A DNA stretch of 25,748 bases from a virus: positions 1 to 25,748 of IMG/VR virus record IMGVR_UViG_3300037587_000256; one strand, 5' to 3'. Positions 1 through 23,788 of this stretch are shown here, piece by piece (within the stretch, counting starts at the first letter, position 1; every line of letters begins with the position of its first letter). The notes beneath the pieces are model-generated. The model was not told the DNA's origin. It worked only from the letters and a program-made list of their open reading frames with translations, and searched no databases. The translations under genes and the position numbers were made by a program.

Positions 1-380
1 CTGTTATCCATAGAGTCAGCGTCTTTGGTATCGTCAATCAGAAACAGGCCATTAAGCGCATACTTCCTGGCATAACTTGACGCGGTGCCGGTGATCTGTG
101 AATCATCCATCCCTTTCTTTGTGAGTGATTCGCGAGCAAGTGCAGAGTTTGAGACAGACTCCTTGCCATCGGTAAGCGTCACCGTAGCCTTGACATAGAT
201 GCGGTCGCCAATCATCTGAACATCATCAGTGATAGTCACAACCAGGTCGCCAAGGACAAGCTTCAGCCCCTCAAGGATATCCTCGCAGCTTCGATAGTTG
301 TATTTTCCGAAACTGTTGTACTGGTTCTTCGGCGCTTTTAAATCCTTCTGGATCTTCGCAAGCTTCGTATAGATAGTCAT
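1..380 (-). CDS. erf: ERF-family single-strand annealing recombinase, C-terminus cut by window edge
   Basis: Homologous-recombination protein that anneals complementary single strands, used by phages such as P22 for genome circularisation and repair. The 126 visible residues start MTIYTKLAKIQKDLKAPKNQ. They carry two ERF-family hallmarks: SFGKYNYRSCEDILEGLKLV at about residues 22-41, and ITGTASSYARKYALNGLFLI at about 96-115, followed by DDTKDAD. The frame is open at position 1, so the C-terminal part lies outside the window. The start at 380 has a GGGAGG site about ten bases upstream, and its ATGA overlaps the stop of the preceding 59-codon gene, so translation is probably coupled. It is the last visible gene of the leftward arm. 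Family assignment is from remembered motifs and is strong. Confidence 0.92.
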   Translation of the reverse strand, partial: MTIYTKLAKIQKDLKAPKNQYNSFGKYNYRSCEDILEGLKLVLGDLVVTITDDVQMIGDRIYVKATVTLTDGKESVSNSALARESLTKKGMDDSQITGTASSYARKYALNGLFLIDDTKDADSMDN

Positions 381-4376: not shown

Positions 4377-5276
4377 ATGACAGGCTGGGTCAAATTATAC
4401 CGGTCTTTGGCTGAGCATGAACTATGGCTGGCTGAGCCTTTCACTTACGGGCAGGCATGGGCTGATCTTGTGATGTGCACTAATCACGCCCCTGGTTCAT
4501 TCATGGTCAAAAGGCAACGGGTAGCTCTTGAGAGAGGGCAAATTGGGTGGTCAGAAATAACGATGACACAGCGCTGGAAGTGGTCGAGAGGGAAGGTTAG
4601 AAGATTTCTGAAGCGACTCGAAAGCGATGGTATGATAAAGCAACAAACGGGACATCTGACTAGCGTTATAACTATCTGTAACTACAACGAATATCAGGGA
4701 GAGCCAAAGCAAGACGGTACATCTGATAGTACAGCAGACGGTACACCTGACGGACATCTGACGGTACATGAGACGGTACACAAACAAGAATGTAAAGAAT
4801 TAAAAGAACGTAAAGAACTTAAACCAACACTTGATCAAACAAACCTTGATCGACTGTTCAACTTCTTCTACTCAGCCTATCCAAAAAAGGTTGATAAGCA
4901 AAAAGCCGTGCAGAAGTTTGGAGTAATCTTCAGAGGCAAGGAGCCAGCACAGGCAGATGAATTGCTAGACCTGATCATCATCAACATTGAACAACGAATT
5001 GCAGCTGGTGGGTGGGACTTGCTCAACAAGCAATACATACCGAGCCCAGCTAAATACTTGTTAAACAAATTATGGGAAGACGAAATCATAGGGGCACCGA
5101 ATGGGCAACATCGACAAACATCTAGCCAACCAGGGCAGATCGACCACCAAGATACCACCTGGGGCGACGAATTCCTCGATCAACCAGCAGACCATTCAAC
5201 TGGTCAACAAGATCTTCGACCGGCTGAGAGCGATTTACCCCGCTTGGAAGCAAGCTATCCCCACAACCGCCGCTGA
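4377..5276 (+). CDS. O: lambda O-like replication initiator
   Basis: Origin-binding initiator of 299 residues, the same length as I recall for lambda O. The N-terminal part (about 1-105) contains a winged helix (MTQRWKWSRGKVRRFLKRLE) that should bind the iterons. A polar linker (about 113-138) is encoded by the iteron array itself. The conserved phage replication C-terminal domain spans about 155-240 (LFNFFYSAYPKKVDKQKAVQ and PSPAKYLLNKLWEDE). The last 58 codons overlap P in another frame and look low-complexity (rich in Q, D, P), as expected for an overprinted tail. It starts eight bases after the second XRE gene and should recruit P with host DnaB. Confidence 0.88.
   Translation: MTGWVKLYRSLAEHELWLAEPFTYGQAWADLVMCTNHAPGSFMVKRQRVALERGQIGWSEITMTQRWKWSRGKVRRFLKRLESDGMIKQQTGHLTSVITICNYNEYQGEPKQDGTSDSTADGTPDGHLTVHETVHKQECKELKERKELKPTLDQTNLDRLFNFFYSAYPKKVDKQKAVQKFGVIFRGKEPAQADELLDLIIINIEQRIAAGGWDLLNKQYIPSPAKYLLNKLWEDEIIGAPNGQHRQTSSQPGQIDHQDTTWGDEFLDQPADHSTGQQDLRPAESDLPRLEASYPHNRR
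4713..4782 (+). repeat. iteron array inside O, predicted replication origin
   Basis: Repeats of GACGGTACAtcTGA begin at 4713, 4725 (degenerate), 4737, 4749 (one base shorter), 4760 and 4772: spacings of 12, 12, 12, 11 and 12 bases. A related ACGGGACATCTGAC stands alone at 4647. The 11-base step changes the reading frame: the first copies read as DGT, the last two as TVH. The bases are therefore conserved although the encoded residues are not. Lambda's origin likewise lies within O as iterons followed by A+T-rich DNA. Confidence 0.8.
4783..4830. other. A+T-rich origin unwinding element
   Basis: Directly after the last iteron the top strand becomes strongly A-rich for about 50 bases (repeated AAAGAA and TTAAAAGAACGTAAAGAAC runs). 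By analogy with lambda this would be the segment opened when O binds the iterons. The encoded residues are a lysine/glutamate-rich stretch of the O linker. Confidence 0.6.
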
Positions 5277-5790
5277 GCAGGCTGCAAAAAAAGAGTGGCT
5301 CGGTGGTCTGATGGATGCAGGTATCTCTGACTATTCGCTGATTGAGGCTGGTCTGAACGCCTGCCGTGGCTCTGGGTCGCCTTTCTGGCCAACAGTAGGC
5401 CAGTTCATAGGCTTCTGCCATAAAGCCGCCAGTGAGCAAATGGGGGCGCTAGAGACGATGGACGCATATAAGCATCTGATTGGCTATTACGCCATGCCGC
5501 TTCAGAACCGAGACGTTTGCGATCTGAACCCAATTATCTACCACTTGGTGTCAGACCAAGGCTTTGACGTTTTCGCATTCAAAGAGATGTCAGGAGAGAA
5601 AGCGGTCAAATACTTCTCCAAGCACTACCGATCAGTTTTGAAATATCTCGTTGCTGGTGGCGAAATGCGAAAGCCGGTTCAGGTGGATATGCGTATCGAC
5701 AACCCTTCAGGGGTAACGCATAAGGGTCGCGTCAGCAAAGAGGCGGCAAAGAAGAATATCGAAGCGATGAGGCAGATGCTTAGATCGTGA
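5101..5790 (+). CDS. P: lambda P-like helicase loader
   Basis: A 229-residue protein (lambda P is 233 from memory), starting MGNIDKHLANQGRSTTKIPP. It would bind host DnaB and deliver it to the O-bound origin. Core signatures: QQTIQLVNKIFDRLRAIYPA at about 28-47, FWPTVGQFIGFCHKAA at about 97-112, and a basic helical end (SKEAAKKNIEAMRQMLRS). The ATG at 5101 follows GGGGC and leaves the N-terminal length expected for the family. The first 176 bases overlap O in a different frame, far more than the few bases of overlap in lambda. No downstream ATG would keep the conserved core. Confidence 0.85.
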   Translation: MGNIDKHLANQGRSTTKIPPGATNSSINQQTIQLVNKIFDRLRAIYPAWKQAIPTTAAEQAAKKEWLGGLMDAGISDYSLIEAGLNACRGSGSPFWPTVGQFIGFCHKAASEQMGALETMDAYKHLIGYYAMPLQNRDVCDLNPIIYHLVSDQGFDVFAFKEMSGEKAVKYFSKHYRSVLKYLVAGGEMRKPVQVDMRIDNPSGVTHKGRVSKEAAKKNIEAMRQMLRS

Positions 5791-7662: not shown

Positions 7663-7884
7663 ATGAGCGTATCAACAACCAGCGTGATCATTGAGCGCAT
7701 CCGGGCTGCAACTATGAAAAGCCCGATTGCGATTTTTAAGACTGAGTGCAAGGGCAGTTATAACGCCGTTTTCGCCAGTACCATTTTCACCAAAATGAAA
7801 ATAGAGTGTCGGGATGAAGCATTGCTTGGCATATATTTCGGTGTTTCAGGAATTAATGACTTCGTTAGAGACACGCGGGGGTGA
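7663..7884 (+). CDS. small hypothetical protein
   Basis: A 73-residue protein starting MSVSTTSVIIERIRAATMKS. It is mixed alpha/beta with a central FKTECKGSYNAVFASTIF stretch. The ATG has GGAG eight bases upstream; an in-frame TTG at 7657 overlaps the previous stop and is less likely. The stop overlaps the GTG of the sigma-like gene (GTGA), so the two are probably translated together. No known family. Confidence 0.62.
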   Translation: MSVSTTSVIIERIRAATMKSPIAIFKTECKGSYNAVFASTIFTKMKIECRDEALLGIYFGVSGINDFVRDTRG

Positions 7885-8378
7885 CTCCTGAAGCGTTTGA
7901 GCAGGCCTTGACGCCATCGGTCTACATGCGCATGCGTAGGCTGACATCAAACATGTCTCACTATTGGTCTGAAGATATCGCGCAAGAGGCGGCACTATCA
8001 GCTTGGTTGAGTTGCGATAAGTTCAGGGGTGACTGTGACTTCGAGGGCTGGCTCATGCGTATAGTTAACAATACAGGGCTTAATTTTCGGGGCGGCTTAG
8101 TAAACACTTTCCGGCGCAGCATGGTTTATGATTCACAGCCAGTGTTTGATGACATACAAGGTGATCTTTCACACTCAGAAGGCCCGTGTAATATGCTTGA
8201 GGCCGGGCGTCGCTTAAAGCTGATATGCGACCGGCTACAGGCGATGAAACCTGCTGCAAGGGACATGTTCCTGAAATATCGACTGACACCGATCAGCTAT
8301 CAAGAATTGGTAGGTCAGGTGCCGAAGTATAAATCCAGGCTGACCCGAGCAACAGCCCGACTATTGGAGATTGAGTGA
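7881..8378 (+). CDS. ECF-type sigma-factor-like protein, candidate late regulator
   Basis: A 165-residue protein read from a GTG, starting [20 protein letters not shown]. Region 2 signature at about residues 29-63: [20 protein letters not shown], then [11 protein letters not shown], like the DIxQExFLRAW and FxxWLxRIxxN patterns of extracytoplasmic-type sigma factors. Region 4-like end at about 117-163: [20 protein letters not shown], then a [13 protein letters not shown] recognition-helix-type tail; the middle turn is divergent. In a lambda-type map this follows the replication genes, near where a late activator would sit. It may direct host RNA polymerase to the leftward late operon (inference). 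An anti-sigma-type regulator is the main alternative. Confidence 0.78.
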
Positions 8379-8566
8379 TGAGTGACCCAGCCAGCTTTAA
8401 ACAAGGCGATCCAGTCAGGAAGAAGAGCGGGGCGCAATGGGCGGGGCGAGTTGTCGGGTTCTACAGCACTGTGTTAACGCCGGTAGGGTACTGCGTAGAG
8501 AGCAAGTGTCATCCGGGTTCTGTGCAGATTTACCCCGCTAAGGCTTTGGAGTTAGACGATGACTAA
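8378..8566 (+). CDS. DfrB/R67-type dihydrofolate reductase homologue
   Basis: A 62-residue protein starting [20 protein letters not shown]. From about residue 7 it follows the plasmid R67 (type II, trimethoprim-insensitive) enzyme nearly position by position: [29 protein letters not shown] then [12 protein letters not shown]. With an offset of 17 against remembered R67 numbering, K15, W21, H45, S48, Q50, I51 and Y52 match K32, W38, H62, S65, Q67, I68 and Y69, including the VQIY active-site strand; F28 replaces W45. The disordered R67 N-terminus is absent. R67 works as a tetramer of SH3-like barrels reducing dihydrofolate with NADPH. The ATG at 8378 overlaps the sigma-like gene's stop by one base. 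Enzyme activity is inferred, not shown. Confidence 0.85.
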
Positions 8567-8660
8567 CCTACTAATCGGATTTGCAGCAGGGTGCATTGTT
8601 ACAGCCGCGATACTTTACAGGCTTTACGATATGCCAGAGACGAAGGAGAACGAGGGATGA
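8559..8660 (+). CDS. tiny single-pass membrane protein
   Basis: A 33-residue frame starting [20 protein letters not shown], with one hydrophobic helix (residues 3-20) and a short acidic tail. It has GGAG upstream, overlaps the reductase-like gene by eight bases and ends in the ATGA that starts the next gene. This three-gene chaining is the main evidence that it is translated. Its role may be only coupling, or an unknown membrane function. Confidence 0.5.
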
Positions 8661-9456: not shown

Positions 9457-9963
9457 ATGATCACACAAGCAAAACTCAAAGAATTACTTCACTACAATCC
9501 AGATACTGGCGTGTTTACGTGGCTGGTCAACAAAGGCTCTCGTGCTCCTGCTGGCTCTGAAGCAGGAAACATCCATCAAGACGGGCGTACTAGTTATCGA
9601 TTGATAATGATAGATGGCGCGAGTCATAAGGCTCACCGCCTTGCCTGGCTGTATGTCCATGGAGAGTTTCCCAAAAACGATATCGGCCACGAAGATCATG
9701 ACGGCCTGCACAATTGGATCAGCAACCTGCGAGACGTGACGAACAGCGAGAATAACAAGAACAAATCGCTTAGTTGTAATAACACTTCAGGCGTTGTGGG
9801 CGTCAGTTTACACAAGGGTACTGGCAAATGGCGGGCTCAAATAAGCACAGAATCTGGAAGAAAGCATCTCGGGTATTTCACCAATAAAGAAGACGCGATC
9901 GAAGCCGCAAAGGCTGCACGGGTTAAATATGGCTATCACGAAAACCACGGATCAACCCGATGA
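9457..9963 (+). CDS. HNH homing endonuclease with C-terminal AP2 domain
   Basis: A free-standing homing endonuclease of 168 residues, starting MITQAKLKELLHYNPDTGVF. It opens with the LLxYxPxTGxFxW motif usual in this family. The HNH region (about 65-105) reads KAHRLAWLYVHGEFPKNDIG, then HEDHDGLHNWISNLRDVTNS. The AP2-like DNA-binding domain (about 110-160) has SGVVGVSLHKGTGKWRAQIS and HLGYFTNKEDAIEAAKAARV. Its stop overlaps the ninB start by four bases, and a 120-base non-coding leader precedes it, so it looks like an insertion into the recombination cluster. It cuts DNA to spread its own gene; the target is not identifiable here. Confidence 0.9.
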   Translation: MITQAKLKELLHYNPDTGVFTWLVNKGSRAPAGSEAGNIHQDGRTSYRLIMIDGASHKAHRLAWLYVHGEFPKNDIGHEDHDGLHNWISNLRDVTNSENNKNKSLSCNNTSGVVGVSLHKGTGKWRAQISTESGRKHLGYFTNKEDAIEAAKAARVKYGYHENHGSTR

Positions 9964-10457
9964 GTAGGCTATTCACGATTAAGACAAGTGGTGATAGACG
10001 CCCCGTTTTAACGGCGCTCTGGGATTACGTAGGCGAAGTCTTGCGCGGCGGCGCCCTAGACATAACCGTTGCCAGAGCCTCTAAGACGCGCCTACAGGAG
10101 TCTCGCTATCACGCCATGATCGGCGACATCTTCAAGCAGGTTGAATTCAAAGACGAGCATGACAACCCTATTAAATCAGATCGCGAGTGGCTCAAAGCGG
10201 TTCTGATCGATGACTTTGGGCAAGAGATGTTGCTAGCTGGAACGCCATTGGCTAAACCCGGCCGGTCAGTGATGAGCCTGGATAGAGTGAGGATTATTCA
10301 GATTCGACCCTCAAGCTCAGATTTTAGAGTCAAAGAGGCGTCTCAATTTATCGAGTACCTTTTTGCATTTGGTGCGCAAGAAAATGTCAGCTGGACAGAT
10401 CCAGAAACACAGGCGCAATATAGAGACTACTTTGAGCGGGTATCTAACGGAGGATGA
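9960..10457 (+). CDS. ninB: NinB-like recombination protein
   Basis: A 165-residue protein starting MSRLFTIKTSGDRRPVLTAL. The KTRLQESRYHAMIGDIFKQV segment (about 42-61) matches the NinB pattern of a basic x-Q-x-R-x-x-x-W/H-x-x-L/I-G-D-x-x-x-Q-V. The end (FIEYLFAFGAQENVSWTDPE, about 128-147) matches its AFG....WSD signature. In lambda, NinB (Orf) is a recombination mediator that loads on single-stranded DNA with SSB. The start sits in the overlap with the endonuclease stop and the upstream SD is weak, so it may be coupled. Confidence 0.83.
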   Translation: MSRLFTIKTSGDRRPVLTALWDYVGEVLRGGALDITVARASKTRLQESRYHAMIGDIFKQVEFKDEHDNPIKSDREWLKAVLIDDFGQEMLLAGTPLAKPGRSVMSLDRVRIIQIRPSSSDFRVKEASQFIEYLFAFGAQENVSWTDPETQAQYRDYFERVSNGG

Positions 10458-11441: not shown

Positions 11442-11669
11442 ATGACTGATTTGAACGAGAAACAACCGCCTTCAATACCCAACGACAATGTATGTGTTTG
11501 GGACTTAGTGCTGGTAGATATGCGCGACCGGGACGACATGGGTGAAAGGAAACACAACACCCGACTCCAGCCGCACAACGGGCGAGATTGCTTAGTTGAC
11601 GCTTACCAAGAAGCCTTAGATATGATCGTGTACTTGCGGCAAGCAATATATGAACGCGACGGTGCATAA
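11442..11669 (+). CDS. conserved-looking phage hypothetical protein
   Basis: A 75-residue protein starting MTDLNEKQPPSIPNDNVCVW. The end reads LQPHNGRDCLVDAYQEALDM then IVYLRQAIYERD, a motif (HNGRD..VDAY.EALD...YLRQ) that I have seen recurrently in phage early proteins with no assigned role. GAGGAGGATGTG precedes the ATG; the same leader sits before the HNH gene at 11698. An in-frame GTG at 11439 is a weaker start. Confidence 0.72.
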   Translation: MTDLNEKQPPSIPNDNVCVWDLVLVDMRDRDDMGERKHNTRLQPHNGRDCLVDAYQEALDMIVYLRQAIYERDGA

Positions 11670-11697
11670 CAACCAGCTAACAGGTGAGGAGGATGTG

Positions 11698-12123
11698 ATG
11701 GGTGCTATAAAAACAACACAGGCTGATAAGGCTTTTTCAAAGTGTATCAGGGAGCGTGCAAATTGGACTTGTGAGCGATGTGGCAAGTATTACCCTGAAG
11801 GCTCTAGGAACGGCATAGAGTGCTCTCACCACCATTCAAGGGGTAACTGGTCTATCCGGTTCGATCCAATGAATGCCGAATGCCTGTGCACCGGTTGCCA
11901 CTTCCTGGAGGGTGGGACACAACAACGCAGGGAGACAGTCTTGACAGATGCCGAACAAGACCTGCTATTTGAGAAGATGCGGGATACTTCTCTAGGCCGT
12001 GAAGCGAGGAAGACGAAAGGTAAAGGGCCGATTGCTAAGCACTACCGGGATGAACATGCGAAGATGGTTGATCTGCGCGATGAATTTAACGCTGGCAGAT
12101 TGGAGTTTATTGGGTATTATTAG
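11698..12123 (+). CDS. HNH / NinG-like recombination nuclease
   Basis: A 141-residue protein starting MGAIKTTQADKAFSKCIRER. CERCGKYYPEGSRNGIECSH (about 25-44), then HHSRGNWSIRFDPMN and LCTGCHFLEGG, form a zinc-binding HNH-type motif (two CxxC pairs, histidines and an N). This layout is shared by NinG-like proteins, though lambda NinG differs in spacing. NinG (Rap) is a Holliday-junction endonuclease, which suits its place after NinB and the nuclease. The open frame extends to 11650, but GAGGAGGATGTG supports the ATG at 11698. A plain HNH endonuclease is the alternative. Confidence 0.7.
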   Translation: MGAIKTTQADKAFSKCIRERANWTCERCGKYYPEGSRNGIECSHHHSRGNWSIRFDPMNAECLCTGCHFLEGGTQQRRETVLTDAEQDLLFEKMRDTSLGREARKTKGKGPIAKHYRDEHAKMVDLRDEFNAGRLEFIGYY

Positions 12124-12685: not shown

Positions 12686-14758
12686 TCACTCCATGAAGAT
12701 GGTGATACCGGCAGGTGTCGAGCTAAGGATAAACGTTCCGTCATTGCTCCCCGCTCTGCCGTATATCTGGACAGCCTCGCCAGCAGTAACCGCAACCGTG
12801 GTGGTAAAGTTGAGCTGTTGAGAGCCTGAAGTGCTAACAATCCCGTCTTGCCATTCGATGGTATCGGCTAGCACATCGTCTATACGAATCTCTATGAATA
12901 TCGGGTCTGTGGTGATAATCGACCGAAATGGTGCAGAGAATCTAACAGTACAAAGACCGGTATGCGGGACCGTGTATTCGTCGTTGGCATTGCTCCACAA
13001 CCCGAAGTCATCCCATGTGCTGGAGAAGCTGATCTTCTGTGCAGCTATGTCTAGAGCGTTGGAGGCGTCAGACTTGATAAATACCTTGTTGGTGTTATCG
13101 ATTGCTCCTTGATGAGAAGCAGCAGTTACATGCCCGTCTTCAATCAACACATTCCTTTCTCTGCTGGTGCCAAGAAAGTTCGCCTTCGTAACATTCGACA
13201 CGTCATCGCCACCAGCAAACAGGAACCGGATATTGGCAACGTTGTCCTCTGTCGTGGCGCTGTCGGTCGTAGTGATGCCGTTGATAGCCGCACCCGCAGC
13301 AGAATCAACCCTAGCGATGATGTTCAAGTTGTTCTGTGCTGCGAATCCAGACACGCTTGAGTTTATAAAAATCATATCGGTAGCGCGGAAGGTATTACCA
13401 CCTACACCCAGAGTGCCGTTCTGGATAATCCGAGTATCAATGTCATTCTTATACCCGTCTATAATAAGATCTCGGCCCCAGTTGTTATCAAGCTCAATCC
13501 CTTGTACGCGAACGTTATGTTGAGTGAATCCAGTTGCGTGGGCTAAAAATAGGCCGAACCCATCTGCACCGTTAACGCCGTTGCTTGCCCCGTTACCCGA
13601 GATTGTCCCTGATGTAATGTGGTGAGCCGCGCCTGGCAGAAAAACTCCACCCATCGCATTCGTAATGATATAAAAATCGCTCATCCTTAGCGTTAGGGAT
13701 GGGGTCTCGATGTTGACGCCAATGCCGGTTCCTCCTGATGATGTGAAGCCGATAAGGCGGAATTCACCACAGGAATAACGGTCAGGCTGTGCATTAAGGG
13801 TCGCGTCAAGAGGTATTGAGAACCCGTTACCTTTTAGGGCGGTCTCGTCATAGTTGATAGACTCCCCAAACCACGCGGAGTATATCTCAGCCCCTGCTGC
13901 GCCTGACGGGCTTGACCCGTCTGTGGTGACAGTCATTTCATTTAGCTTGAATCCTGTGAATCTAGCGCCAATAGTATCTCCCAGCAAAGCTGCCTGAGCT
14001 ACAGTAGGACGGTGACGCAACCAGCTACCAGCAAATCGGTTAATTACTGTTGTTTTGTTCTTGCCTAAACCTATAAAAGAGTTAGTAGGCTGAATGATAT
14101 CCGTTTCGTTTACAGAAGTGCGGGCCTCCACTTGGTTGTTAATGATAAACGTATTCTCACCAAGCTTTGTGCCGGTGGTGCTATCTGCGGCTACCAGTGC
14201 GGCTTGGATCTCTACATCGGTAAAGGTTGTGCCATCGGTAGAGAAGTCATCAGCCCAAACGCCGTTTAGAGGTAACGCAAAGAAACCACCAGTCAGGGCG
14301 ATCTTTGTGGTGGCCGTGACAACCTGCCAATCACCATAACCAGTTGACAGAATCTGACCGGCAGAAAATGTTACCGTCGATCCATCTAGTGCGGTGCCGG
14401 TCTGCATGTCGGCAACGTTATCAAAGACCAATGTGATTGAAGACGTGTCAGACAGTGGATCGGCATTTAGATTGTCTGCGAACTGAATAGCGTTGGATGT
14501 ATCGTTTGCGTCAGCTTCTGCAGCAGTTGGGAAAAGCCACAGATCATATCGCCCGTTGATAAACGGAATCAGCCGGGCGCTACCGGCAGTAACAGGGAAT
14601 CCCAGAGAGTCTAATTGAAACTTGGCAACAGTTGTCCCGCCCGTGGCATCTGTGGCCATTACCAGAGGCGTAGTTGTTCCCTGCTCAAAGGCTTTCAGCC
14701 ACTGATTAGGGAAGTCCTCATATTGAGGGATTGTTAGTGCTATCGGTGCGAATGCCAT
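12686..14758 (-). CDS. tailspike with head-binding domain, beta-helix and C1q-like end
   Basis: A 690-residue host-recognition protein starting MAFAPIALTIPQYEDFPNQW. Residues 1-105 are a virion-attachment domain (FEQGTTTPLVMATDATGGTT, then GRYDLWLFPTAAEADANDT). About 170-550 is a right-handed beta-helix-like region with repeated short strands and asparagine/glycine turns, as in pectin-lyase-fold tailspikes. About 555-690 looks like a C1q/TNF-type jelly roll (VFIKSDASN, FSSTWDDFGLWSN, ending GITIFME). It probably forms a trimer that binds or degrades surface glycan; catalytic residues could not be picked out. AGGAG lies nine bases upstream, and the gene directly follows the ejection-protein gene. 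It is the last gene of the late operon. Confidence 0.85.
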   Translation of the reverse strand: MAFAPIALTIPQYEDFPNQWLKAFEQGTTTPLVMATDATGGTTVAKFQLDSLGFPVTAGSARLIPFINGRYDLWLFPTAAEADANDTSNAIQFADNLNADPLSDTSSITLVFDNVADMQTGTALDGSTVTFSAGQILSTGYGDWQVVTATTKIALTGGFFALPLNGVWADDFSTDGTTFTDVEIQAALVAADSTTGTKLGENTFIINNQVEARTSVNETDIIQPTNSFIGLGKNKTTVINRFAGSWLRHRPTVAQAALLGDTIGARFTGFKLNEMTVTTDGSSPSGAAGAEIYSAWFGESINYDETALKGNGFSIPLDATLNAQPDRYSCGEFRLIGFTSSGGTGIGVNIETPSLTLRMSDFYIITNAMGGVFLPGAAHHITSGTISGNGASNGVNGADGFGLFLAHATGFTQHNVRVQGIELDNNWGRDLIIDGYKNDIDTRIIQNGTLGVGGNTFRATDMIFINSSVSGFAAQNNLNIIARVDSAAGAAINGITTTDSATTEDNVANIRFLFAGGDDVSNVTKANFLGTSRERNVLIEDGHVTAASHQGAIDNTNKVFIKSDASNALDIAAQKISFSSTWDDFGLWSNANDEYTVPHTGLCTVRFSAPFRSIITTDPIFIEIRIDDVLADTIEWQDGIVSTSGSQQLNFTTTVAVTAGEAVQIYGRAGSNDGTFILSSTPAGITIFME

Positions 14759-16579
14759 CTATTGTTGCTCCTGCTGTGCCTGTATCGTCGCTGCTGTTGC
14801 TGCACCGGCTGAAAGGATCAAGTTTCTCTCTGCTGCGCTTCCAGGCTTAGAGTTAGCAAGCTTTATCAGTAGATTCCTGACCGCCGCGCTCTCGTAAGCC
14901 CTTGTGACCACAGCAAGGGAGCCTGCAGTGATGATCGTTGTTAACGGATCTGCAACTGCCCCGCCCCCTACTGCTAGCGGAATAATCTGCTGCCCCGTCG
15001 GGGTTGAAACAGCCGCCTGCTGCGCCCTACGCGTCGCGTCTAATAGCCTACTCAGCCCTTCTACACGTTTTTTGTCGTTGCCTTTAAAAAACACGCCGAT
15101 AGCCTTCTGATAATTAGGTTTGAGCAAAGTCGTTGCCAATCTGTCTGGGTTTGGAGACGCAAAGAAACCGCTATCTGTAAGGGCGCTCCTTATAATCGCT
15201 GCTTTCGCCGATTCTTTACCCTTGGGCGTAAGGCTTTTGTTTAGCCGTTGTAGTTCGCTAATCTTGCCACCCTTAAGGATTGGCCCAACCTTCTCTGGAG
15301 TGATGTCGCCAGTCTCGATCAGCCTCTTCAGCTCTGTATTTTTGACATTCCCCAGTTCGAACGCAAACTTACGATTCGACGCAAGCCAGTCCTTTGCCGC
15401 CTTCTTGTCGTTCTTTCTGGCAAAAGCGATCATATCTTTATCAATAGCCGACTTTATCGACTGCAGCGCCCCTGCTGCTCTGGCGTCGTCACTTCTCCTC
15501 GCTGCCTTTAGGTCGCTTATAACCTCTTGACGGATATCTTTGACTACACTAAAGTCATTACCATCAATTGAACCACTAATATTATTAAGGTTGTCGATCT
15601 GCGATGAGTCTGCTTTCAGTCCTAATCTTGCTTGTCTATCTAATTGTTTCTGAATAGCTGCTTGAGTCTTGGCTACAGGAACATCACCAAAAGGCACTAG
15701 TGTGTCTATGGATCTGTTCCGCTGCTCTGACGCTATAGACAACTCATCAGCATTCTTCTTTTTAAGTGATTTGACGATATCCGCCTCGAACGGAGCATCT
15801 AGATCAGCATTGAATTCATCGGCCAACTCCACCACGATATCTGATCTAGCACGCTGCTGTGCTGCCCTCTTATTACCAGTACCAAGCGGCCCTAGCTTCT
15901 CGCTAAGCTGCTGTAAGCTTTTCCCAGCAAAGCTATCAGGAGGCAATATGTCTGTTGTCAATATAGGGGTGTTTAACTCTTTCCCAGACTGCAATATAGC
16001 AGCCTGTTCCGGGCTAGGCTTTGCCTTGCTAGCACGCCGAAGTCTTCCCGCCCCTTTCGCTGGTAATCCACCAGCAACCATCAGTAACCCCTCAAATGCG
16101 GCCTCCCCTACTGCCCCACCAATCGGCCCTGCAATATCAAAACCAGCCTCACCTGTTGCTTTTCTGCCTTTCTCTAACACATCCACAACTGGTTCCAGTG
16201 TTTCACCCAGCGCCTGCAGACCTGCTTTGCCTTGCGCCGAGGTGGGCTGAAAGGTCAGAGCATTACGAACTGTCTCTACCGCTTTTGCACCAGCCTCCGG
16301 CCCTTCAGCAATCGTGGCTGCAATTCCTGTAAGACCTGCTAGCGGCTCTGCAATGGCTCCTGTGGCCAGTGTTAAGGCAGGATCGACGAACGTTTCAAGC
16401 CCGACTTCAGGCTTTGGGATCAAGTCAGGATTACGCTGCTGTGCTCTGGCTAAGATATTAGGGTCAATTTGAGGATCTGCGCCTATCTGTCTCTTTACAG
16501 TCGCCTGTATAACATTTGGATCAGTCCCGTCTGGGAACTCCAAAACAGTTCCGTCAGCTAGTTGAGCCTGGATTGTCAT
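14759..16579 (-). CDS. ejection (DNA-transfer) protein in P22 gp16 position
   Basis: A 606-residue protein starting MTIQAQLADGTVLEFPDGTD. The N-terminal PDGTDPNVIQATVKRQIGAD motif is frequent in internal virion proteins of podoviruses. The following region is alanine/glycine-rich with hydrophobic helices (LATGAIAEPLAGLTGIAATI; IAGPIGGAVGEAAFEGLLMV) suited to membrane insertion. The middle third is long charged helices. The C-terminal part again has hydrophobic stretches (LAVGGGAVADPLTTIITAGS). In P22-type particles such proteins leave the virion before DNA and help form a conduit through the envelope. The start overlaps the previous stop (ATGA). No lytic transglycosylase motif was found. Confidence 0.68.
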   Translation of the reverse strand: MTIQAQLADGTVLEFPDGTDPNVIQATVKRQIGADPQIDPNILARAQQRNPDLIPKPEVGLETFVDPALTLATGAIAEPLAGLTGIAATIAEGPEAGAKAVETVRNALTFQPTSAQGKAGLQALGETLEPVVDVLEKGRKATGEAGFDIAGPIGGAVGEAAFEGLLMVAGGLPAKGAGRLRRASKAKPSPEQAAILQSGKELNTPILTTDILPPDSFAGKSLQQLSEKLGPLGTGNKRAAQQRARSDIVVELADEFNADLDAPFEADIVKSLKKKNADELSIASEQRNRSIDTLVPFGDVPVAKTQAAIQKQLDRQARLGLKADSSQIDNLNNISGSIDGNDFSVVKDIRQEVISDLKAARRSDDARAAGALQSIKSAIDKDMIAFARKNDKKAAKDWLASNRKFAFELGNVKNTELKRLIETGDITPEKVGPILKGGKISELQRLNKSLTPKGKESAKAAIIRSALTDSGFFASPNPDRLATTLLKPNYQKAIGVFFKGNDKKRVEGLSRLLDATRRAQQAAVSTPTGQQIIPLAVGGGAVADPLTTIITAGSLAVVTRAYESAAVRNLLIKLANSKPGSAAERNLILSAGAATAATIQAQQEQQ

Positions 16580-17784
16580 TGCACTAGATTCCCTTGGGCG
16601 TCGAATTTCAACACTGTTGGAGTCGTGACAGCAGCTGCCGCTGGTTCTGCAGTACCGGCTGGCTGCGCCTCTCGCGTCTTCTTCCGCAAGAACCCCGCCT
16701 GCGTACCCCCCGTATCAAGGAAATCAATCTGCTCTTGGAAGTAGTTGAGTAGCTTCGTCTGTGCTACTTGTCGGGCCTGTAGGTGAGCGATCAATTGAGG
16801 CCCGTCTAATCCAGTTGGTAGAGCGATCTGCTTGGCTAAATCCAACTCACCTTCGGACAGTGCGCCAAATGCAACTGCGCCGATGACATCAAGCGCCAAT
16901 TCTCCCTGTATCTGATCAAGCTCAACAGATGCAGCCTTGATTGATGGGAATCTACGCTCAATCGCTCCTGTGCCTGCTCCTGCCTCAACCGCTTTGATGG
17001 CTCGGTCAAGGTTTCTAATGTTCTGGGCGATCTTGCCGACTCTCTCGAATCCGCTATCAATAGCTTTAGCTCTTGATGCTCCGGTCTTCTTGCCAAACTC
17101 TTCCGCCTGTTTAATCTGGGCTTGGCTCTCTGCTACCTGAGTAGTGAGGGATGGATCACCAGAAATTCGTTCGGCTGCTGATATACCTGCTCTCGGCTCA
17201 AGCCCCAGCTTAATAGCAGCCGCCTGCCCTTTTTTCGTTTTTAACTCGGGATCAGCATCAACTATAGCGGTTAGATTCGCAAACTCTCTCTGTCCTGCGC
17301 TTCCTGTCGGAGCCTGTAGCTGCTTGAAGGCATCTATGCTTTGCTGCATACGTTGGGCAAGTAATTTAGGGTTGCTGTCTAATAGCTTAAGTGCCTCGTC
17401 AACCTCAGTAGTATCAACCCGCTCCCCTTGCCTTGCTGCCTCTACTAAACCCTGTCTGCGTTGCTGTAAGAGCGCTCTGGTACCCTCTATGTCGCCAGCC
17501 GCCAATGCGGGGAGTGCTTGCTGGGAAAATTGAGCGATAGAGTTAAGCCGCGCCGTGTTCCGTTCATCAAGCTGCTGCGTAGGGGTCGCTACTCCCCGCT
17601 CTGCCGTAGTTACTTGCGCCTCTAGCAGGCGGTCACGCAATGGCTGGAGCTGCTGGTTAAGCTCCTGCTGCTGTCTCTGTTGCTGTATTTGCTCAAGCCG
17701 CTGAACATTCAACAACGCATTGCCGAATGAAGCGCCCACATCTGTAGGACGCCCCGCAAGTAGTACTCTAGGATCTGCTGCCAT
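16576..17784 (-). CDS. ejection (DNA-transfer) protein in P22 gp20 position
   Basis: A 402-residue, nearly all-helical protein starting MAADPRVLLAGRPTDVGASF. A glutamine-rich coiled coil (RLEQIQQQRQQQELNQQLQP, about 29-48) is followed by long charged helices with DAFKQLQAPTGSAGQREFAN near 150-170. The C-terminus has KLLNYFQEQIDFLDTGGTQA then a basic, alanine-rich tail. The coiled-coil, helical composition and order in the operon fit gp20-like ejection proteins. It overlaps its neighbours by one to four bases. Confidence 0.66.
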   Translation of the reverse strand: MAADPRVLLAGRPTDVGASFGNALLNVQRLEQIQQQRQQQELNQQLQPLRDRLLEAQVTTAERGVATPTQQLDERNTARLNSIAQFSQQALPALAAGDIEGTRALLQQRRQGLVEAARQGERVDTTEVDEALKLLDSNPKLLAQRMQQSIDAFKQLQAPTGSAGQREFANLTAIVDADPELKTKKGQAAAIKLGLEPRAGISAAERISGDPSLTTQVAESQAQIKQAEEFGKKTGASRAKAIDSGFERVGKIAQNIRNLDRAIKAVEAGAGTGAIERRFPSIKAASVELDQIQGELALDVIGAVAFGALSEGELDLAKQIALPTGLDGPQLIAHLQARQVAQTKLLNYFQEQIDFLDTGGTQAGFLRKKTREAQPAGTAEPAAAAVTTPTVLKFDAQGNLVQ

Positions 17785-18476
17785 TAGAGTCCGGCTCCCC
17801 CGCCCTGACCAACCGAACCTGGGGCACCTGGTGATATGAATCTGGTTGGTGTTAATCCAGTTGTTACCGCACCACCTCCCCCGCCAAATCCACCGCTTGC
17901 TCCAAGCGTTGCCAAGTTGATAAGATTTGATGTCCCTGCTGCCCGTGCGTTAGCTACGCCAATACCGCCCGCAGCATTGATATTGCCGACATCTTGAAGC
18001 AGAGGAGATATATTAGAGGTTGCCCCAATCTCAACGTTAGCCTGTTGGCCCGCTACGCCCCGCCCAAAGTCCAATAGACCCGCAATGCTTCGCTTCTGAT
18101 CGCCTATCAATGGAGATGCTGACAGCAATACGTTCTTGCTCAGTTGCTCAAGGGTATCGCCCGCACTCAGCCGCCCTCTCGCTGCTGCCAGCTTCTGAGT
18201 GCCTGTCTGTGCCTGCTCTAGCGCTAGGCTGAATAAAGGGTTGCTCTGTAGGAAGTCGAATTGTTGCTGAGGGTCGGTTAGGAAGCTTGCTTGCTCCAAC
18301 CCTTGCTGGCCAGGTGCGCCAAACGGCTGTAGAAACTCCTGCGCCCGTCCTGCGCCTGCCTCTTGCCGGGCGATGGCCTCTTGCGTGGCTTGCACCTGCG
18401 CTACACGCCCTGCTTCAGCAGCATCCGCGGCAGATGATCCAGTAATAGCGCCTATTGTGTTCTTAACAAATCCCAT
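17784..18476 (-). CDS. ejection (DNA-transfer) protein in P22 gp7 position
   Basis: A 230-residue protein starting MGFVKNTIGAITGSSAADAA. The N-terminal short hydrophobic segment is followed by a helical alanine/glutamine-rich region, a conserved-looking FLTDPQQQFDFLQSNPLFSL segment (about 65-84), then AAARGRLSAGDTLEQLSKNV. The C-terminal 50 residues are glycine-rich and flexible (GGFGGGGGAV). Small podovirus proteins with NPLF..AL and RG..S motifs accompany the two larger ejection proteins. The start overlaps the GNAT gene by 14 bases. Confidence 0.68.
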   Translation of the reverse strand: MGFVKNTIGAITGSSAADAAEAGRVAQVQATQEAIARQEAGAGRAQEFLQPFGAPGQQGLEQASFLTDPQQQFDFLQSNPLFSLALEQAQTGTQKLAAARGRLSAGDTLEQLSKNVLLSASPLIGDQKRSIAGLLDFGRGVAGQQANVEIGATSNISPLLQDVGNINAAGGIGVANARAAGTSNLINLATLGASGGFGGGGGAVTTGLTPTRFISPGAPGSVGQGGGAGL

Positions 18477-18912
18477 GATCTAACCTCAACACCTGTACGT
18501 TTGATAGTTTGCCGTCTTGAAGGTGTGCATCTTCTTTGATTTCGATGCACTTAAACCCAAACGATTCGGCAAATCTAACAACATTCCCATAAATACAGGG
18601 AATCTCGGCGTATATTGGCAAGTTCTTGGCTAGGCCGATGTCAAGCGCCATTCTTGCAAAGCTTAAAGCGTGCTCCTTCCTGAATTCTGGTAAAACCTGG
18701 ATGTGGCAGTAATATTTACTGTCAACCCAATGATACACCATAATCCCAACTGCATCATCTCCATAAATACCAACGATATAGTTGTGATCCTCCAGTGGTG
18801 GGGTGAATTCCTCTACCGGTGGGCAGTTATCATCTATGATCGTCCTGTATATCTCTGGGTGACAAAGTATCGACTTAATCAACCCAATGTCCTGTGTACT
18901 CTCTACGATCAT
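18463..18912 (-). CDS. GNAT-like protein in P22 gp14 position
   Basis: A 149-residue protein starting MIVESTQDIGLIKSILCHPE. The layout is GNAT-like: a central strand pair (NYIVGIYGDDAVGIMVYHWV), HIQVLPEFRKEHALSFARMA with the RKEHA in the acyl-CoA loop position (R-x-x-x-A type), and a YGNVVRFAESFGFK segment typical of the final GNAT helix and strand. P22 gene 14, a head-assembly factor in this place, belongs as I recall to DUF2824, which is GNAT-related. The canonical acetyl-CoA pocket is degenerate, so enzyme activity is uncertain. It starts in ATGA with the previous gene. Confidence 0.65.
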   Translation of the reverse strand: MIVESTQDIGLIKSILCHPEIYRTIIDDNCPPVEEFTPPLEDHNYIVGIYGDDAVGIMVYHWVDSKYYCHIQVLPEFRKEHALSFARMALDIGLAKNLPIYAEIPCIYGNVVRFAESFGFKCIEIKEDAHLQDGKLSNVQVLRLDHGIC

Positions 18913-19238
18913 GTAACTTCTGACCCTGATAGGACTGTGTTATAAGACGCTGCTACAGACGACTGTATCTTGATTGAGTCGCCTGCGTTGATCTTCAGTC
19001 CTGCCGCCTGGTCAACAGTCCAACTCTTGCCAATTCCTGCAGGTACTTTTCTGACTGCCAGAATCCTATCCGTAGTGCCATCGTTAAAATAGACGCTAAA
19101 TGTGTTAATCACTGCAGAGCCGTTTGTAACAACCAAGCTTAGGCCAGCCGCAACAGTGCCGGCCACGCCTGTGTGCAGAGTGGTTAGGTCTGTTGTGACT
19201 ACTGTTCTTGCGTCTAGATTTTGCGGTGCTCTTGCCAT
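18909..19238 (-). CDS. small virion structural protein
   Basis: A 109-residue beta-rich protein starting MARAPQNLDARTVVTTDLTT. It contains many threonine/serine/valine strands (LSLVVTNGSAVINTFSVYFN) and ends IQSSVAASYNTVLSGSEVT. The composition resembles decoration or tail-accessory proteins. It lies between a 104-residue unknown and the GNAT gene in the late operon and may occupy the needle/accessory slot. No catalytic motif; assignment from place and composition only. Confidence 0.5.
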   Translation of the reverse strand: MARAPQNLDARTVVTTDLTTLHTGVAGTVAAGLSLVVTNGSAVINTFSVYFNDGTTDRILAVRKVPAGIGKSWTVDQAAGLKINAGDSIKIQSSVAASYNTVLSGSEVT

Positions 19239-19242
19239 TCTC

Positions 19243-19557
19243 TCACCACTCGACTTTAATGGTCACGGTTGACAAAACAGGGCCGCTCATAGTGTTTGTA
19301 GCGCTCACTGTATATCCCTGATCAACGAGACACTCAACGACCTTGTTGAAATTGCTGAACGTGTCATCAGGTAGCTCTATATTTACCGCCCCGCTGATCA
19401 CCGATGCAGCCAGTTCTTTCTCTACAACGCGAAGGCCGGCAGTGGATGCAACTCCTATAAGAGTATCAAACTGCAACATCGGGGCTGCAGTCGTAGCCAT
19501 TATAGTGTTGTTGGTGTCGCTTTCTGTCGCTGCTGTTGTACTTGATCTAAGCGCCAT
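19243..19557 (-). CDS. small late protein
   Basis: A 104-residue protein starting MALRSSTTAATESDTNNTIM. A polar first 25 residues lead to a probable alpha/beta domain (VVEKELAASVISGAVNIELP, then FNKVVECLVDQGYTVSATN) ending TVTIKVEW. The FxxVVExLVDQGYTVS pattern looks like a compact fold often seen in small virion-associated proteins. The TAATG overlap with the preceding gene indicates coupling. Function unknown. Confidence 0.55.
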   Translation of the reverse strand: MALRSSTTAATESDTNNTIMATTAAPMLQFDTLIGVASTAGLRVVEKELAASVISGAVNIELPDDTFSNFNKVVECLVDQGYTVSATNTMSGPVLSTVTIKVEW

Positions 19558-20981
19558 TATTGATCCTCAAACCAAACAGTGGAGGCTTTCATCACTGAAG
19601 CCGCCCCTGATGTTGTGTTCATTGCTACGGTTAAGCTTTCCCCTGGCACTAATATCTGATTGAGCGCAGCGAAGTCCAAAGACCCTGGCTCACCCTCGGC
19701 TATGACATCCCCACCAGTCACCACGACCTGGTCGATAGCTGTCTGCATAATTGAATCAGCTGTGTCAAAGTTAGCGAATGTGAAACTCGACCCGGCTATA
19801 GGCGTTGCGTTTTTGATAACTTGTAAGTCAACAGGTTTGCCTGAATCTGTCGATGAACCCAGCACCCCGATGATAACTTCTGCCAAGTTCCTAATACCTC
19901 CGAACTCGTTTCTGTTCCGAAGCGTGATTATGTTTGTCGGAAGCAACCCCACACCTGCGGCCGTGTTTGCGTCGCCTTTCGACCCTGACGTATTGAGCTT
20001 CTTGCCCTCAATAAATCCACCAAAAGATGCTGACTCCACTCTAATCGCCGTGGCATTCCCTTTGTTCTCTGATGCAATGCCCAGCCTAAACGTTGGGTTT
20101 AAAAGAGTTGGATTATCACCTGTACCCGCCGCCTTAATGATATGGACGGCCTCAAAGTCTCCGGTATCTGGGTTCTCGGCCTTGAACTCTATAGCACCAC
20201 CGCCGAGATACTCGAAACTAATCTCATACGGCGTAAGCTTGTCGGGCGTTATCGTGAAATCAAAGTCTTCTGACCAGCTTGCTTCGGGGATGAAAGTCAC
20301 CGTCCACTCTACAGCCGCTTCAACCTGCGCCCAAGATGCCACTGCCGTCGCAGACGAGAATGCAAAAGAACCAACGGTGGCGCTTACCAGGTTCTGAACT
20401 GCAGTCACAGTTGCGCCTGTGCTGTCAAAGTCCCACAACTCAATCTGACTATTGAGAGACTGAGCCACCTCGTAAGCCGTGTGTGATGTCGAACCTGCTG
20501 TTAGTGCGACGGTGTAGCCTGTGCCATCTACGGTGACTGTGGCGCTCTCTATACCTCCAGCGCCTGTCGTTACAGTCAGAAGCTGAACCTCTTGGCGAGC
20601 AAACCGCCTGTACCAGATGCCAAAGACTAAGTCTTGGTAACCAAATGTTAGGGTATCGTTAAATCCGAGAAGACCGGCGTCCTGCTCGCTGCCTGTCGCT
20701 GGAGTGTCAAATTTGGCTGTGAATCTACCTTTCGCCCCCTGCCCTGGACGGTAGGTTAGTGCTCGCTCGCTAATGACAGAACCTAGAGAGGGCGTGGCCG
20801 CTCCGGTAACGGCGAAGAATTTGCTATCTAAAGATCCAGATGAACCTCCTCCGATGTTAATGCTGTCTGTCTGACCGAGCTGCCCATACTGGGTAGACAG
20901 CTGGATAACGGGTGTGTTCTCGGCAGTCGATAACTCCCCAAAGGCGGTCTTTTGTAGTAATTCTGGTACGTTGTTGCTCAT
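19557..20981 (-). CDS. large beta-rich virion structural protein
   Basis: A 474-residue protein starting MSNNVPELLQKTAFGELSTA. It has a structural-protein opening often seen in phage and marine-virus virions (NNVPELLQKTAFGELSTAE, then ALTYRPGQGAKGRFTAKF and FGYQDLVFGIWYRR). The rest is repetitive beta-sheet with glycine turns. A TTG at 20993 is in frame, but the ATG at 20981 overlaps the previous stop as ATGA and is preferred. I believe it is a tail or fibre-associated particle protein; the exact place in the particle is not known. Confidence 0.62.
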   Translation of the reverse strand: MSNNVPELLQKTAFGELSTAENTPVIQLSTQYGQLGQTDSINIGGGSSGSLDSKFFAVTGAATPSLGSVISERALTYRPGQGAKGRFTAKFDTPATGSEQDAGLLGFNDTLTFGYQDLVFGIWYRRFARQEVQLLTVTTGAGGIESATVTVDGTGYTVALTAGSTSHTAYEVAQSLNSQIELWDFDSTGATVTAVQNLVSATVGSFAFSSATAVASWAQVEAAVEWTVTFIPEASWSEDFDFTITPDKLTPYEISFEYLGGGAIEFKAENPDTGDFEAVHIIKAAGTGDNPTLLNPTFRLGIASENKGNATAIRVESASFGGFIEGKKLNTSGSKGDANTAAGVGLLPTNIITLRNRNEFGGIRNLAEVIIGVLGSSTDSGKPVDLQVIKNATPIAGSSFTFANFDTADSIMQTAIDQVVVTGGDVIAEGEPGSLDFAALNQILVPGESLTVAMNTTSGAASVMKASTVWFEDQ

Positions 20982-21451
20982 ATCACATGCCAACTATCAG
21001 TTTCTACGGTGTAAATGATGTCAAGGCTTGTATATTTGACGTTTATCCGCAACGTGGTATTGCCGTCGATCAGCTTACCGTTGCCATTAATAATTATCTG
21101 CCCCGCTGCTCGCTTAACCGTTGCTAGCTCCTGATCATCCGGCTCATCATTGAGGGTTATAGTGACCGCGTCTGTGCAGATAACGATATCACTGCCAATC
21201 GTGGTGTAATCGATGGCTGTCGGTATTACGTTCCTAAACTCTAGATCAGATATGCGGCTGAACAGCCCAAACAGACCATCTGTATCGACCTGGGAGTTGA
21301 CCGTCTCGTCTACGGAATCGTCAGCTCCACCTGTCCTTGTCCATAGCTGGAACAGCAGCCACTCTAGCTTCTCAAAGTAAGGCCGTAATTCCTTATCCGC
21401 GTTTATCTTTTTTGGTCGCCTGAACTGCGGTGGTGGATTGACTAAAGCCAT
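20978..21451 (-). CDS. structural protein following gp10, possible tail-needle-slot protein
   Basis: A 157-residue protein starting MALVNPPPQFRRPKKINADK. The N-terminal LRPYFEKLEWLLFQLWTRTG (about 22-41) is a helix with an LFQLW.RTGG.DD motif common in a small protein next to podovirus neck genes. The C-terminal part is beta-rich (AGQIIINGNGKLIDGNTTLR, then VETDSWHVI), resembling a fibre or trimer cap. In P22 the gene after gp10 is the needle gp26; homology is not visible, only position. It overlaps the next gene by ATGA. Confidence 0.55.
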   Translation of the reverse strand: MALVNPPPQFRRPKKINADKELRPYFEKLEWLLFQLWTRTGGADDSVDETVNSQVDTDGLFGLFSRISDLEFRNVIPTAIDYTTIGSDIVICTDAVTITLNDEPDDQELATVKRAAGQIIINGNGKLIDGNTTLRINVKYTSLDIIYTVETDSWHVI

Positions 21452-22866
21452 TATCTGCCCGCCAATCTGATATCAATCGAGCCTGAGTAAATCGAATAAT
21501 CAACGGCGTCTGATGTAGTGATGCGAATCATCAAGTCATAGAAGCTGATCATGGACCACCATTCTGCCCTGATGTTTGTCTCTCCCAGCCGCCCTATGCG
21601 AAGCCAATCACCTTCGCGCCATGATTTTCCGCCATCAGTAGAATACTCCAGCATGATCTTAGGGTCTTCGCCCTGCCCTGTAATCAGGCCAACGCCCATC
21701 TCCATTATCAATTCGAAGCGGGACATTTGCATGCGCTTACCGCGGTTGCCTATGTTCTCGCCGCTGATTGAGGCTAATACTCGGCGGCGCTGATAGACTG
21801 CTCCATTGTTGTCAAATCGGTTTATGTCTAATTCGTAAAGGTCGCCGGTCGCCTTATCACCGATCAGGTTCTTACCGAACACATTAACAAGAGAGGCTAT
21901 GTTGTAATCACCGCCCTCTGTGCCTGCTGACAGCTCGAACCAGCCATCGGTGCCAAGCTCCTCATTCAGGCACCAGGTCTGCTGGGCATCAGGGAAGTCT
22001 ATCGCGTAGAACTCTTTACCTTGGAATACGAAGGTATAGGCGAACGCATCATCTACTCTGTCATACCCTTCAACGGCGTTAGCTATAGCGGTCGATGATA
22101 TGCGCTCCTCTGCGCCCCCTCTTGCCCTGTAGACACTGCGATCAGACCCCAGCCAGTAGATGGCGTCCTTCGTGTTCGCTACTGAGTGAATAGCAGCACA
22201 GCCGATAGATATTAGTGAGCCTTCAACGTTATCAAATGGCGGTGATCCAACGCCTGAGTTGTAGATAAGCTGTACAGTGCGCTCACCAAGCAGATAGACC
22301 ACCTGGTCGAACGTGTAAGCCCGCACTAGGTTGTCGGGGGAAACCTCTGCTCCTGCCGCGTTTAGGCCTGATGCGCTCGATCCATCACCAACATCTGAAA
22401 CCACATACAGAGTGTCTTTTGTGTAGACGAACTGGTTGTTGATGATCGTGACAGCTTTAGACCCGTCGATATCTGGGTCAGTCACCTGGACTACTGTTGA
22501 TCCGTCATACCAAAACACGCTGGTTCCGGTAACAATAAACAGATTCACGCCGTCATTCGCAAAAATGCACCTGGCAGCGCCTGGTATCGTGCCTCTAGAT
22601 GTGTGGGTTCCGGTTGAATCAACCTGATACAGGGTGTTGCCTACCACACGAAACTCGACCTCGGCCATGTTTGTGCCGTTACGATCAGCACCGGCAGTAA
22701 CTGAATCGAACACGGTTTGACCAGGAAAGGACTTGATAACGAATTGATTCTTGCCACTCGGGACTACTTCGTGATACCAGTTGCGAGTCTCTTGCGATGA
22801 CAGAGGTCTAGACCGATCTTGATAGGACGGCCCCGCAATGTTGATTGGTATCGTCTGGAAGGCCAT
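21451..22866 (-). CDS. P22 gp10-like packaged-DNA stabilisation protein
   Basis: A 471-residue protein starting MAFQTIPINIAGPSYQDRSR. The N-terminus has the typical I-x-G-x-S-Y-x-D-R-S-x-x-x-x-x-Q-x-x-x-N-x-Y pattern (residues about 10-32). It is followed by propeller-like repeats (VEFRVVGNTLYQVDSTGTH; YWLGSDRSVYRARGGAEERI; LIGDKATGDLYELDINRFD) and ends MIRITTSDAVDYSIYSGSID. gp10 proteins plug the portal-adaptor channel and hold the genome in the head. It directly follows the adaptor gene, its usual place. Confidence 0.83.
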   Translation of the reverse strand: MAFQTIPINIAGPSYQDRSRPLSSQETRNWYHEVVPSGKNQFVIKSFPGQTVFDSVTAGADRNGTNMAEVEFRVVGNTLYQVDSTGTHTSRGTIPGAARCIFANDGVNLFIVTGTSVFWYDGSTVVQVTDPDIDGSKAVTIINNQFVYTKDTLYVVSDVGDGSSASGLNAAGAEVSPDNLVRAYTFDQVVYLLGERTVQLIYNSGVGSPPFDNVEGSLISIGCAAIHSVANTKDAIYWLGSDRSVYRARGGAEERISSTAIANAVEGYDRVDDAFAYTFVFQGKEFYAIDFPDAQQTWCLNEELGTDGWFELSAGTEGGDYNIASLVNVFGKNLIGDKATGDLYELDINRFDNNGAVYQRRRVLASISGENIGNRGKRMQMSRFELIMEMGVGLITGQGEDPKIMLEYSTDGGKSWREGDWLRIGRLGETNIRAEWWSMISFYDLMIRITTSDAVDYSIYSGSIDIRLAGR

Positions 22867-23502
22867 CTAAGGCGTGGCTCCGTCAACAGTCATCACAGGG
22901 GAGGGTCCGTATCTGCCAAGATCAGCTTTCTTGTTTGCTCCACGAATGGCGTTGATGAACTGGGTGAAGTACCTGGCAGCGTCTTGCTCTTTCTCTGCCC
23001 AGTTATTAAGCGCCCACAACGCACCAAACAGGTAGATAGTGGGGTGATCAGTTAACACTGTATTGGTAGGGTTGGCAGTTGATAGCGCTGTGAACTCCCT
23101 GATGTATTGAAGCTCTAGGTCATAATCGATGTCAGGGAATCGATCAAACTCTAGCTGACTTGTTACAGTGAAGAAACACGGTTGCCCGGCTGCGCTTAAT
23201 ACTCGCAGTTGGCTAGGTGTGCGGTAATCAATTTCAAAGTTCTCACCGTTGACGATCTGCAGGCTTAACTTTCGCATTGATTGGAAGCCATCAGGCAGGG
23301 CAACGAACCGGCTTGGTGTTGTAGAGTCCATCGTTGCTGTTGCTAGGGTTTCTTCTGAGCGGATCTTGAGCGGCTCGATCTGGTTGGCGTACATCTCAGA
23401 TTCTGCCAGTTGAATAAACGTGTCAATCTTCAGATCAACATCGCCTCGGTGTGACCAATCAATGATCTCTAGCTTGAGGTTTTCAAACGTATCTAGCGCC
23501 AT
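22867..23502 (-). CDS. head-tail adaptor (tail tubular A / gp4-slot protein)
   Basis: A 211-residue protein starting MALDTFENLKLEIIDWSHRG. The helical opening (TFENLKLEIIDWSHRGDVDL, then IDTFIQLAESEMYANQIEPL) is the typical start of phage SU10-type adaptor proteins. It is followed by a beta insertion (RFVALPDGFQSMRKLSLQIV) and a closing helix (LFGALWALNNWAEKEQDAAR). Such dodecameric adaptors sit under the portal and receive gp10. The start is separated from the upstream gene by a hairpin terminator, so it may have reduced or separate expression. Confidence 0.78.
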   Translation of the reverse strand: MALDTFENLKLEIIDWSHRGDVDLKIDTFIQLAESEMYANQIEPLKIRSEETLATATMDSTTPSRFVALPDGFQSMRKLSLQIVNGENFEIDYRTPSQLRVLSAAGQPCFFTVTSQLEFDRFPDIDYDLELQYIREFTALSTANPTNTVLTDHPTIYLFGALWALNNWAEKEQDAARYFTQFINAIRGANKKADLGRYGPSPVMTVDGATP

Positions 23503-23526
23503 TGTGTCACACCTGAATTAGATAAA

Positions 23527-23544
23527 AGGGGGATTGCTCCCCCT
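23527..23544 (-). terminator. intrinsic terminator inside the late region
   Basis: Stem AGGGGGA (23527-23533) and TCCCCCT (23538-23544) around TTGC, followed leftward by TTTATCT after the stem's closing T. It lies 24 bases before the adaptor gene and just after the small protein ending at 23551. It probably lowers transcription from the highly expressed capsid genes into the neck and tail genes. Confidence 0.78.
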
Positions 23545-23550
23545 CTGGTA

Positions 23551-23778: not shown

Positions 23779-23788
23779 AGTTCACTCC

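Follow-up and report, generated by a model that had tools for sequence, protein, structure and literature searches.

What does a gene resembling the trimethoprim-insensitive dihydrofolate reductase of plasmids do in a phage operon, and does it bear on where the integron-borne dfrB genes come from? Both the natural role and the origin of DfrB have been described as open (PMC9835603, PMC11662351). The gene in question lies in a 25,748-base linear virus fragment from IMG/VR, the whole of which we call the window. It is an intact plus-strand ORF with an ATG start and a TAA stop, and a GTG one codon upstream, at 8375, would also be possible as its start. The gene and the elements directly around it are:

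7881..8378, plus strand: sigma-70 region 2 protein (phage sigma-like factor), upstream of DfrB (Pfam Sigma70_r2 E 5.5e-8; phrog_1740 E 4e-7)
8366..8369, plus strand: GGAG Shine-Dalgarno, 8 nt before the DfrB ATG, read directly from the sequence
8378..8566, plus strand: DfrB/R67-type (PF06442) protein, 62 aa, SH3-like barrel with the complete active-site set (profile, residue and fold comparisons)
8559..8660, plus strand: 33-aa ORF with a hydrophobic segment, downstream of DfrB, its start overlapping DfrB by 8 nt

The TGA of the sigma-like gene (8376-8378) shares one base with the DfrB ATG, and the ATG of the following ORF (8559) starts inside the end of DfrB; the one-base overlap before and the eight-base overlap after the gene, as read in the original prediction, are exact in the sequence. 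A family search with the downstream 33-aa ORF gave zero matches. The wider surroundings are those of a phage:

3..380, minus strand: Erf-like ssDNA annealing protein, open at the window edge (phrog_155 E 5e-40)
4377..5276, plus strand: DnaD-like helicase loader / replication initiation protein (phrog_2514 E 2.6e-27)
5101..5790, plus strand: lambda P-like helicase loader (phrog_109 E 1.5e-35)
9960..10457, plus strand: NinB/Orf recombination mediator (phrog_72 E 1.3e-18)
11650..12123, plus strand: NinG/Rap-like endonuclease (phrog_5034 E 2e-14)
12686..25746, minus strand: late module with DNA ejection/transfer, virion structural, head closure Hc3, major head and scaffold proteins (PHROG matches)

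An HNH gene also lies on the early side, and relatives of the major head protein, up to 57% identical, occur in short-tailed phages of Proteobacteria. Judged from these matches, the window belongs to a short-tailed phage that carries DfrB among its early replication and recombination genes, and in relatives, too, DfrB is found within replication/nin-type modules. With phage genes around it and no cassette context found, the gene stands in a phage operon and not in an integron cassette, as had been proposed, and the window showed no thymidylate synthase, again in agreement with the earlier reading. At the DNA level, zero phage records were similar to positions 7000-10500. The closest relative of the window DfrB is encoded on another contig (L001) with 89% protein identity; between the two, DfrB, the 33-aa ORF and an ORF at 9121 are conserved, and the upstream genes are unrelated. 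Together with the absence of DfrB from 19 phages whose capsids are related to that of the window, this comparison marks DfrB as an exchangeable, accessory gene of the early region. The pair gives a dN/dS of about 0.11-0.17, and the window gene is under purifying selection.

The original prediction had recognised the structured core of the plasmid enzyme at about two thirds of positions, and identity to R67/DfrB indeed amounts to 65-70% over 54-58 residues. The Pfam profile DHFR_2 PF06442 (R67/DfrB), the family search by which the assignment was to be checked, matches with E 4.1e-25 and 87.9 bits, over its curated cut-off of 25. The NCBIfam model of clinical DfrB (NF000331 trim_DfrB) scores 94.7 bits, under its cut-off of 137, and for lack of the N-terminal extension its match begins at position 21 of the profile: R67 residues 1-21 are absent, as foreseen. 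Alignment to R67 recovered the predicted VQIY strand and the equivalents of K32, W38, H62, S65, Q67 and Y69; the full set of positions found comprises K32, W38, Y46, S59, H62, S65, V66, Q67, I68 and Y69. The interface residues W38, S59 and H62 are kept, and R67 W45 is replaced by F. In a PDB sequence search the best matches were R67 only (E 7e-21), and the AlphaFold model of the single chain (pLDDT 90.7) is an SH3-like barrel that agrees with the R67 crystals to 0.9-1.0 Å (TM 0.87-0.96), R67 making up the top seven PDB matches and ordinary SH3-like folds following below at E 0.03 or worse. Thus, the first observation was confirmed in every detail that was checked, and the profile E-values, taken with the 89%-identical relative and its dN/dS of about 0.11-0.17, exclude a chance resemblance.

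Phage-borne DfrB is already known, as homologues have been published (PMC9835603, PMC7265639, PMC12466917), and to these the window gene adds a compact, free-standing example. A tblastn search of phage records gave 27 matches, 26 of them convincing and one at E 0.5, and in IMG/VR the number of confirmed DfrB stretches is at least 228, 127 of them reached with the window protein alone as query. The 150 viral rows studied contain 119 different core DNA sequences, row counts being approximate as some viral contigs are present twice. Roughly half of the rows are free-standing, and in the other half DfrB is the C-terminal domain of a longer protein of variable make-up, with a few C-terminal extensions; in the fused N-terminal parts, no Pfam domain exceeded its cut-off. 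In half of the viral rows, the DfrB start and the stop of the gene before it share 4 nt, and translational chaining is thus usual for viral DfrB. Over 105 phage rows, K32, W38, Y46, S65, V66, Q67, Y69 and P70 are essentially invariant, a conservation forced in part by the motif-based retrieval of rows, although phage matches collected with no motif requirement still keep the VQ(I/V)Y strand. At position 62, 57% of phage rows have H and 42% have E. Furthermore, among phage pairs with a DNA identity of 80-95%, all 689 had a dN/dS below 1, with a median of 0.23.

Some members of the family deserve mention in their own right. An alphaproteobacterial subfamily (L130-L137) is free-standing, about 72 aa long, and has AAKKGRASW in place of VRKKSGAAW with VQIY intact. 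In Aeromonas phage AsC4_1, an unannotated DfrB core lies at the start of the linear record and is cut by its end (L209:1-140). In N4-like (Schitoviridae) Rhizobium phages (L207, L210, L211), DfrB adjoins the virion RNA polymerase gene, and GPVQIYP replaces GSVQIYP.

What, then, would the protein do? The reading that we favour, and regard as reasonably probable, is that the window gene encodes a working phage DfrB that tops up the reduced folate/pterin pool in phage DNA synthesis. Four of the 62-residue SH3-like barrels would assemble into one pore, where NADPH would reduce a 7,8-dihydropterin at its C6=N5 bond; the substrate known for DfrB is dihydrofolate, and other dihydropterins may be accepted as well. 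Since such a pore is unrelated to FolA, the enzyme should be insensitive to trimethoprim. Translationally chained behind the sigma-like factor, DfrB would be made early, along with the replication and recombination genes, and most likely would work with the host thymidylate synthase on the supply of reduced folates and pterins. Still, the need for an additional dihydrofolate reductase is not obvious, as FolA and ThyA occur in 25/25 host genomes tested, and a thymidylate synthase was found in only 5/50 DfrB phage records. ThyX and FolA were each found in 0/50 of these records, and coupling to any of these three phage enzymes was rejected as a general rule. Compensation for hosts lacking FolA was likewise rejected, all 25 genomes having both enzymes.

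The presence of host FolA would also suit a protein that has no enzymatic duty, namely a non-catalytic tetrameric SH3-like module for binding or scaffolding, conserved for assembly and ligand binding. Such a module is also favoured by the finding that in about half of the viral rows DfrB forms one domain of a longer protein of variable make-up, and by the fact that DfrB catalysis is proximity-based and uses no dedicated catalytic residue (PMC9835603). Nonetheless, the NADPH- and pterin-contacting VQIY and K32 are fixed, whereas the interface residues W45 and H62 vary, so that ligand contacts are held tighter than some assembly contacts, and several of the fused homologues remain able to confer resistance (PMC9835603). 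We consider the non-catalytic module unlikely.

The most interesting lead on the native role of DfrB came from its neighbours. A scan of 38 viral DfrB loci unexpectedly returned GTP cyclohydrolase and QueD-like proteins, and one clade of free-standing DfrB comprises 31 viral loci with FolE, QueD and QueE homologues beside the gene:

L019:4318-5190; L045:4504-6015; L077:4495-6010; and 28 further viral loci: DfrB in FolE/QueD/QueE clusters

DfrB abuts FolE, QueD or QueE in 22 of the 31 loci (14 distinct DfrB proteins), nearly always through a 4-nt ATGA overlap and in three arrangements, FolE-DfrB, QueD-DfrB and QueD-DfrB-QueE. FolE, QueD and QueE lead from GTP via 6-carboxy-tetrahydropterin to 7-carboxy-7-deazaguanine (Fig. 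1, PMC6884629). The chaining suggests dihydropterin reduction as the native chemistry of DfrB. The known DfrB reaction converts a 7,8-dihydro into a tetrahydro compound, which would suit the purpose of keeping the pterins of this pathway reduced. Phage DfrB might hence act natively in a pterin/7-deazaguanine pathway as a reductase of unconjugated dihydropterins, for instance by keeping 6-carboxy-tetrahydropterin reduced between QueD and QueE, with dihydrofolate activity and drug resistance as side effects. FolE accompanies DfrB in 11/50 DfrB records compared to 392/50,697 phage records overall, and a QueD-family protein does so in 12/50, yet these records are not independent, the FolE and QueD matches coming from a single clade, and 38/50 have neither. 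Moreover, the QueD-like proteins of this clade are divergent, QueC (0/21) and TGT (0/12) were not found, and neither FolE, QueD nor QueE was seen in the window fragment. The literature searched held no enzyme test of DfrB on such pterins and no published link between DfrB and the FolE/QueD/QueE pathway. Weighing these points, we regard a native role in this pathway as rather unlikely, and continue to favour the general supply of reduced folates and pterins for the window gene.

The second part of the question, the relation to clinical dfrB, starts from the observation that the window protein and the cassette-encoded enzymes have the PF06442 core in common at 65-70% identity, which might be explained by recent capture of a clinical dfrB cassette by the phage. 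Yet about a third of residues differ, the plasmid N-terminus is absent, no integron parts were seen nearby, and other phage proteins (89% and 77%) are closer to the window protein than any clinical DfrB, all of which renders such a capture highly improbable.

A scan of the genome collection for DfrB yielded 50 loci. In 22 of these cellular loci, mostly from Burkholderiales, the core is 88-100% identical to that of DfrB10, and the 21-aa N-terminus is shared. Their neighbours belong to acetyltransferase, glyoxalase, GFA, MAPEG and RibD families; these not being phage genes, a prophage origin of the Burkholderiales copies was rejected. Most other cellular DfrB genes appear to lie in prophages, as they stand beside integrases, repressors, RecT, Sak4 and NinB. 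L089 and L090 contain class 1 integron cassettes. Upstream, the flanks of the Burkholderiales genes (L091-L112) match one another over only about 40 nt, and downstream there is hardly any similarity; attC-like 3' ends are kept by a few copies (L100, L106), cassette borders having been read by eye; the short shared border and these 3' ends make the chromosomal genes look like inserted cassettes. As a side observation, the chromosomal Burkholderiales dfrB, described as non-mobile, have different neighbours in each genome (L091-L112). Clinical dfrB derives directly from the cassette lineage of Burkholderiales, which agrees with Kneis 2024 (PMC11662351).

Whether phages stand behind this lineage is a deeper matter. 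In an unrooted tree of 150 rows and 55 columns, the clinical and Burkholderiales rows form one shallow group (89/87) inside a well-supported set of 80 rows, 59 of them phage (99/93). Clinical DfrB thus nests in a mostly phage tree, but with 55 columns, no outgroup and AU tests at p 0.09-0.11 the direction is not established. Accordingly, of the proposed phage origin or at least phage reservoir for dfrB, the reservoir held up, with about 230 stretches in IMG/VR and 26 named phage records, and the origin did not reach that standing: a beginning of the family in phages is plausible but unproven. Better evidence for flow from phages to integrons comes from an identical DfrB-family protein, WP_257792703, in six Pseudomonas plasmids, with a class 1 integron in 3/3 inspected:

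L088:5974-6177; L258:5001-5183; L259:3983-4186; strand opposite to the other cassettes: WP_257792703-type gene in class 1 integrons

In its core, identity is 80-81% with the nearest phage proteins versus 62-64% with clinical DfrB, and the protein has no canonical DfrB N-terminus. By sequence, WP_257792703 represents a second, phage-like entry of DfrB into integrons. Joining both lines, we put forward as a tentative possibility, well short of an even chance, that DfrB is a native phage dihydropterin reductase, placed in a FolE-QueD-QueE operon in one group, that was recruited by integrons at least twice (Burkholderiales/clinical; WP_257792703) and so became trimethoprim resistance.

The compact phage DfrB and the clade chained to FolE, QueD and QueE make role and origin of DfrB testable, and integron dfrB could be traced back to phage lineages. 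Phages appear as a large, under-counted pool of this trimethoprim-insensitive enzyme.

Compared with known systems, the window protein is most reminiscent of R67/DfrB1 (PDB 1VIE, 2RK1), with which it has the barrel, the loop lengths, K32, W38, Y46, S59, H62, S65 and VQIY in common; R67, however, carries a 21-residue N-terminal extension and resides in an integron cassette, whereas the window protein is devoid of the extension and its gene is part of a phage operon. The chromosomal and cassette dfrB of Burkholderiales (Kneis 2024, PMC11662351) share the PF06442 core at up to 74% identity to the window protein (L101), but encode 78 aa with the canonical N-terminus and have no phage genes around them. 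PHROG 31682, for which no function is listed, matches the window protein over nearly its full length (E 7e-18). Among published phage homologues, DfrB-H3 (Pseudomonas phage) and DfrB-H4 (Vibrio phage; 58% to the window protein) of PMC9835603 correspond by organism and neighbours to our L086 and L085, respectively. Both share the SH3-like fold, VQIY, K32 and W38 with the window protein, but are domains of longer proteins, whereas the window protein is free-standing with its 62 aa. DfrB-H4 renders laboratory E. coli resistant to trimethoprim, while neither resistance nor visible expression was obtained with DfrB-H3 (PMC9835603); the window protein is closer to R67 than DfrB-H4, which has E at position 62.
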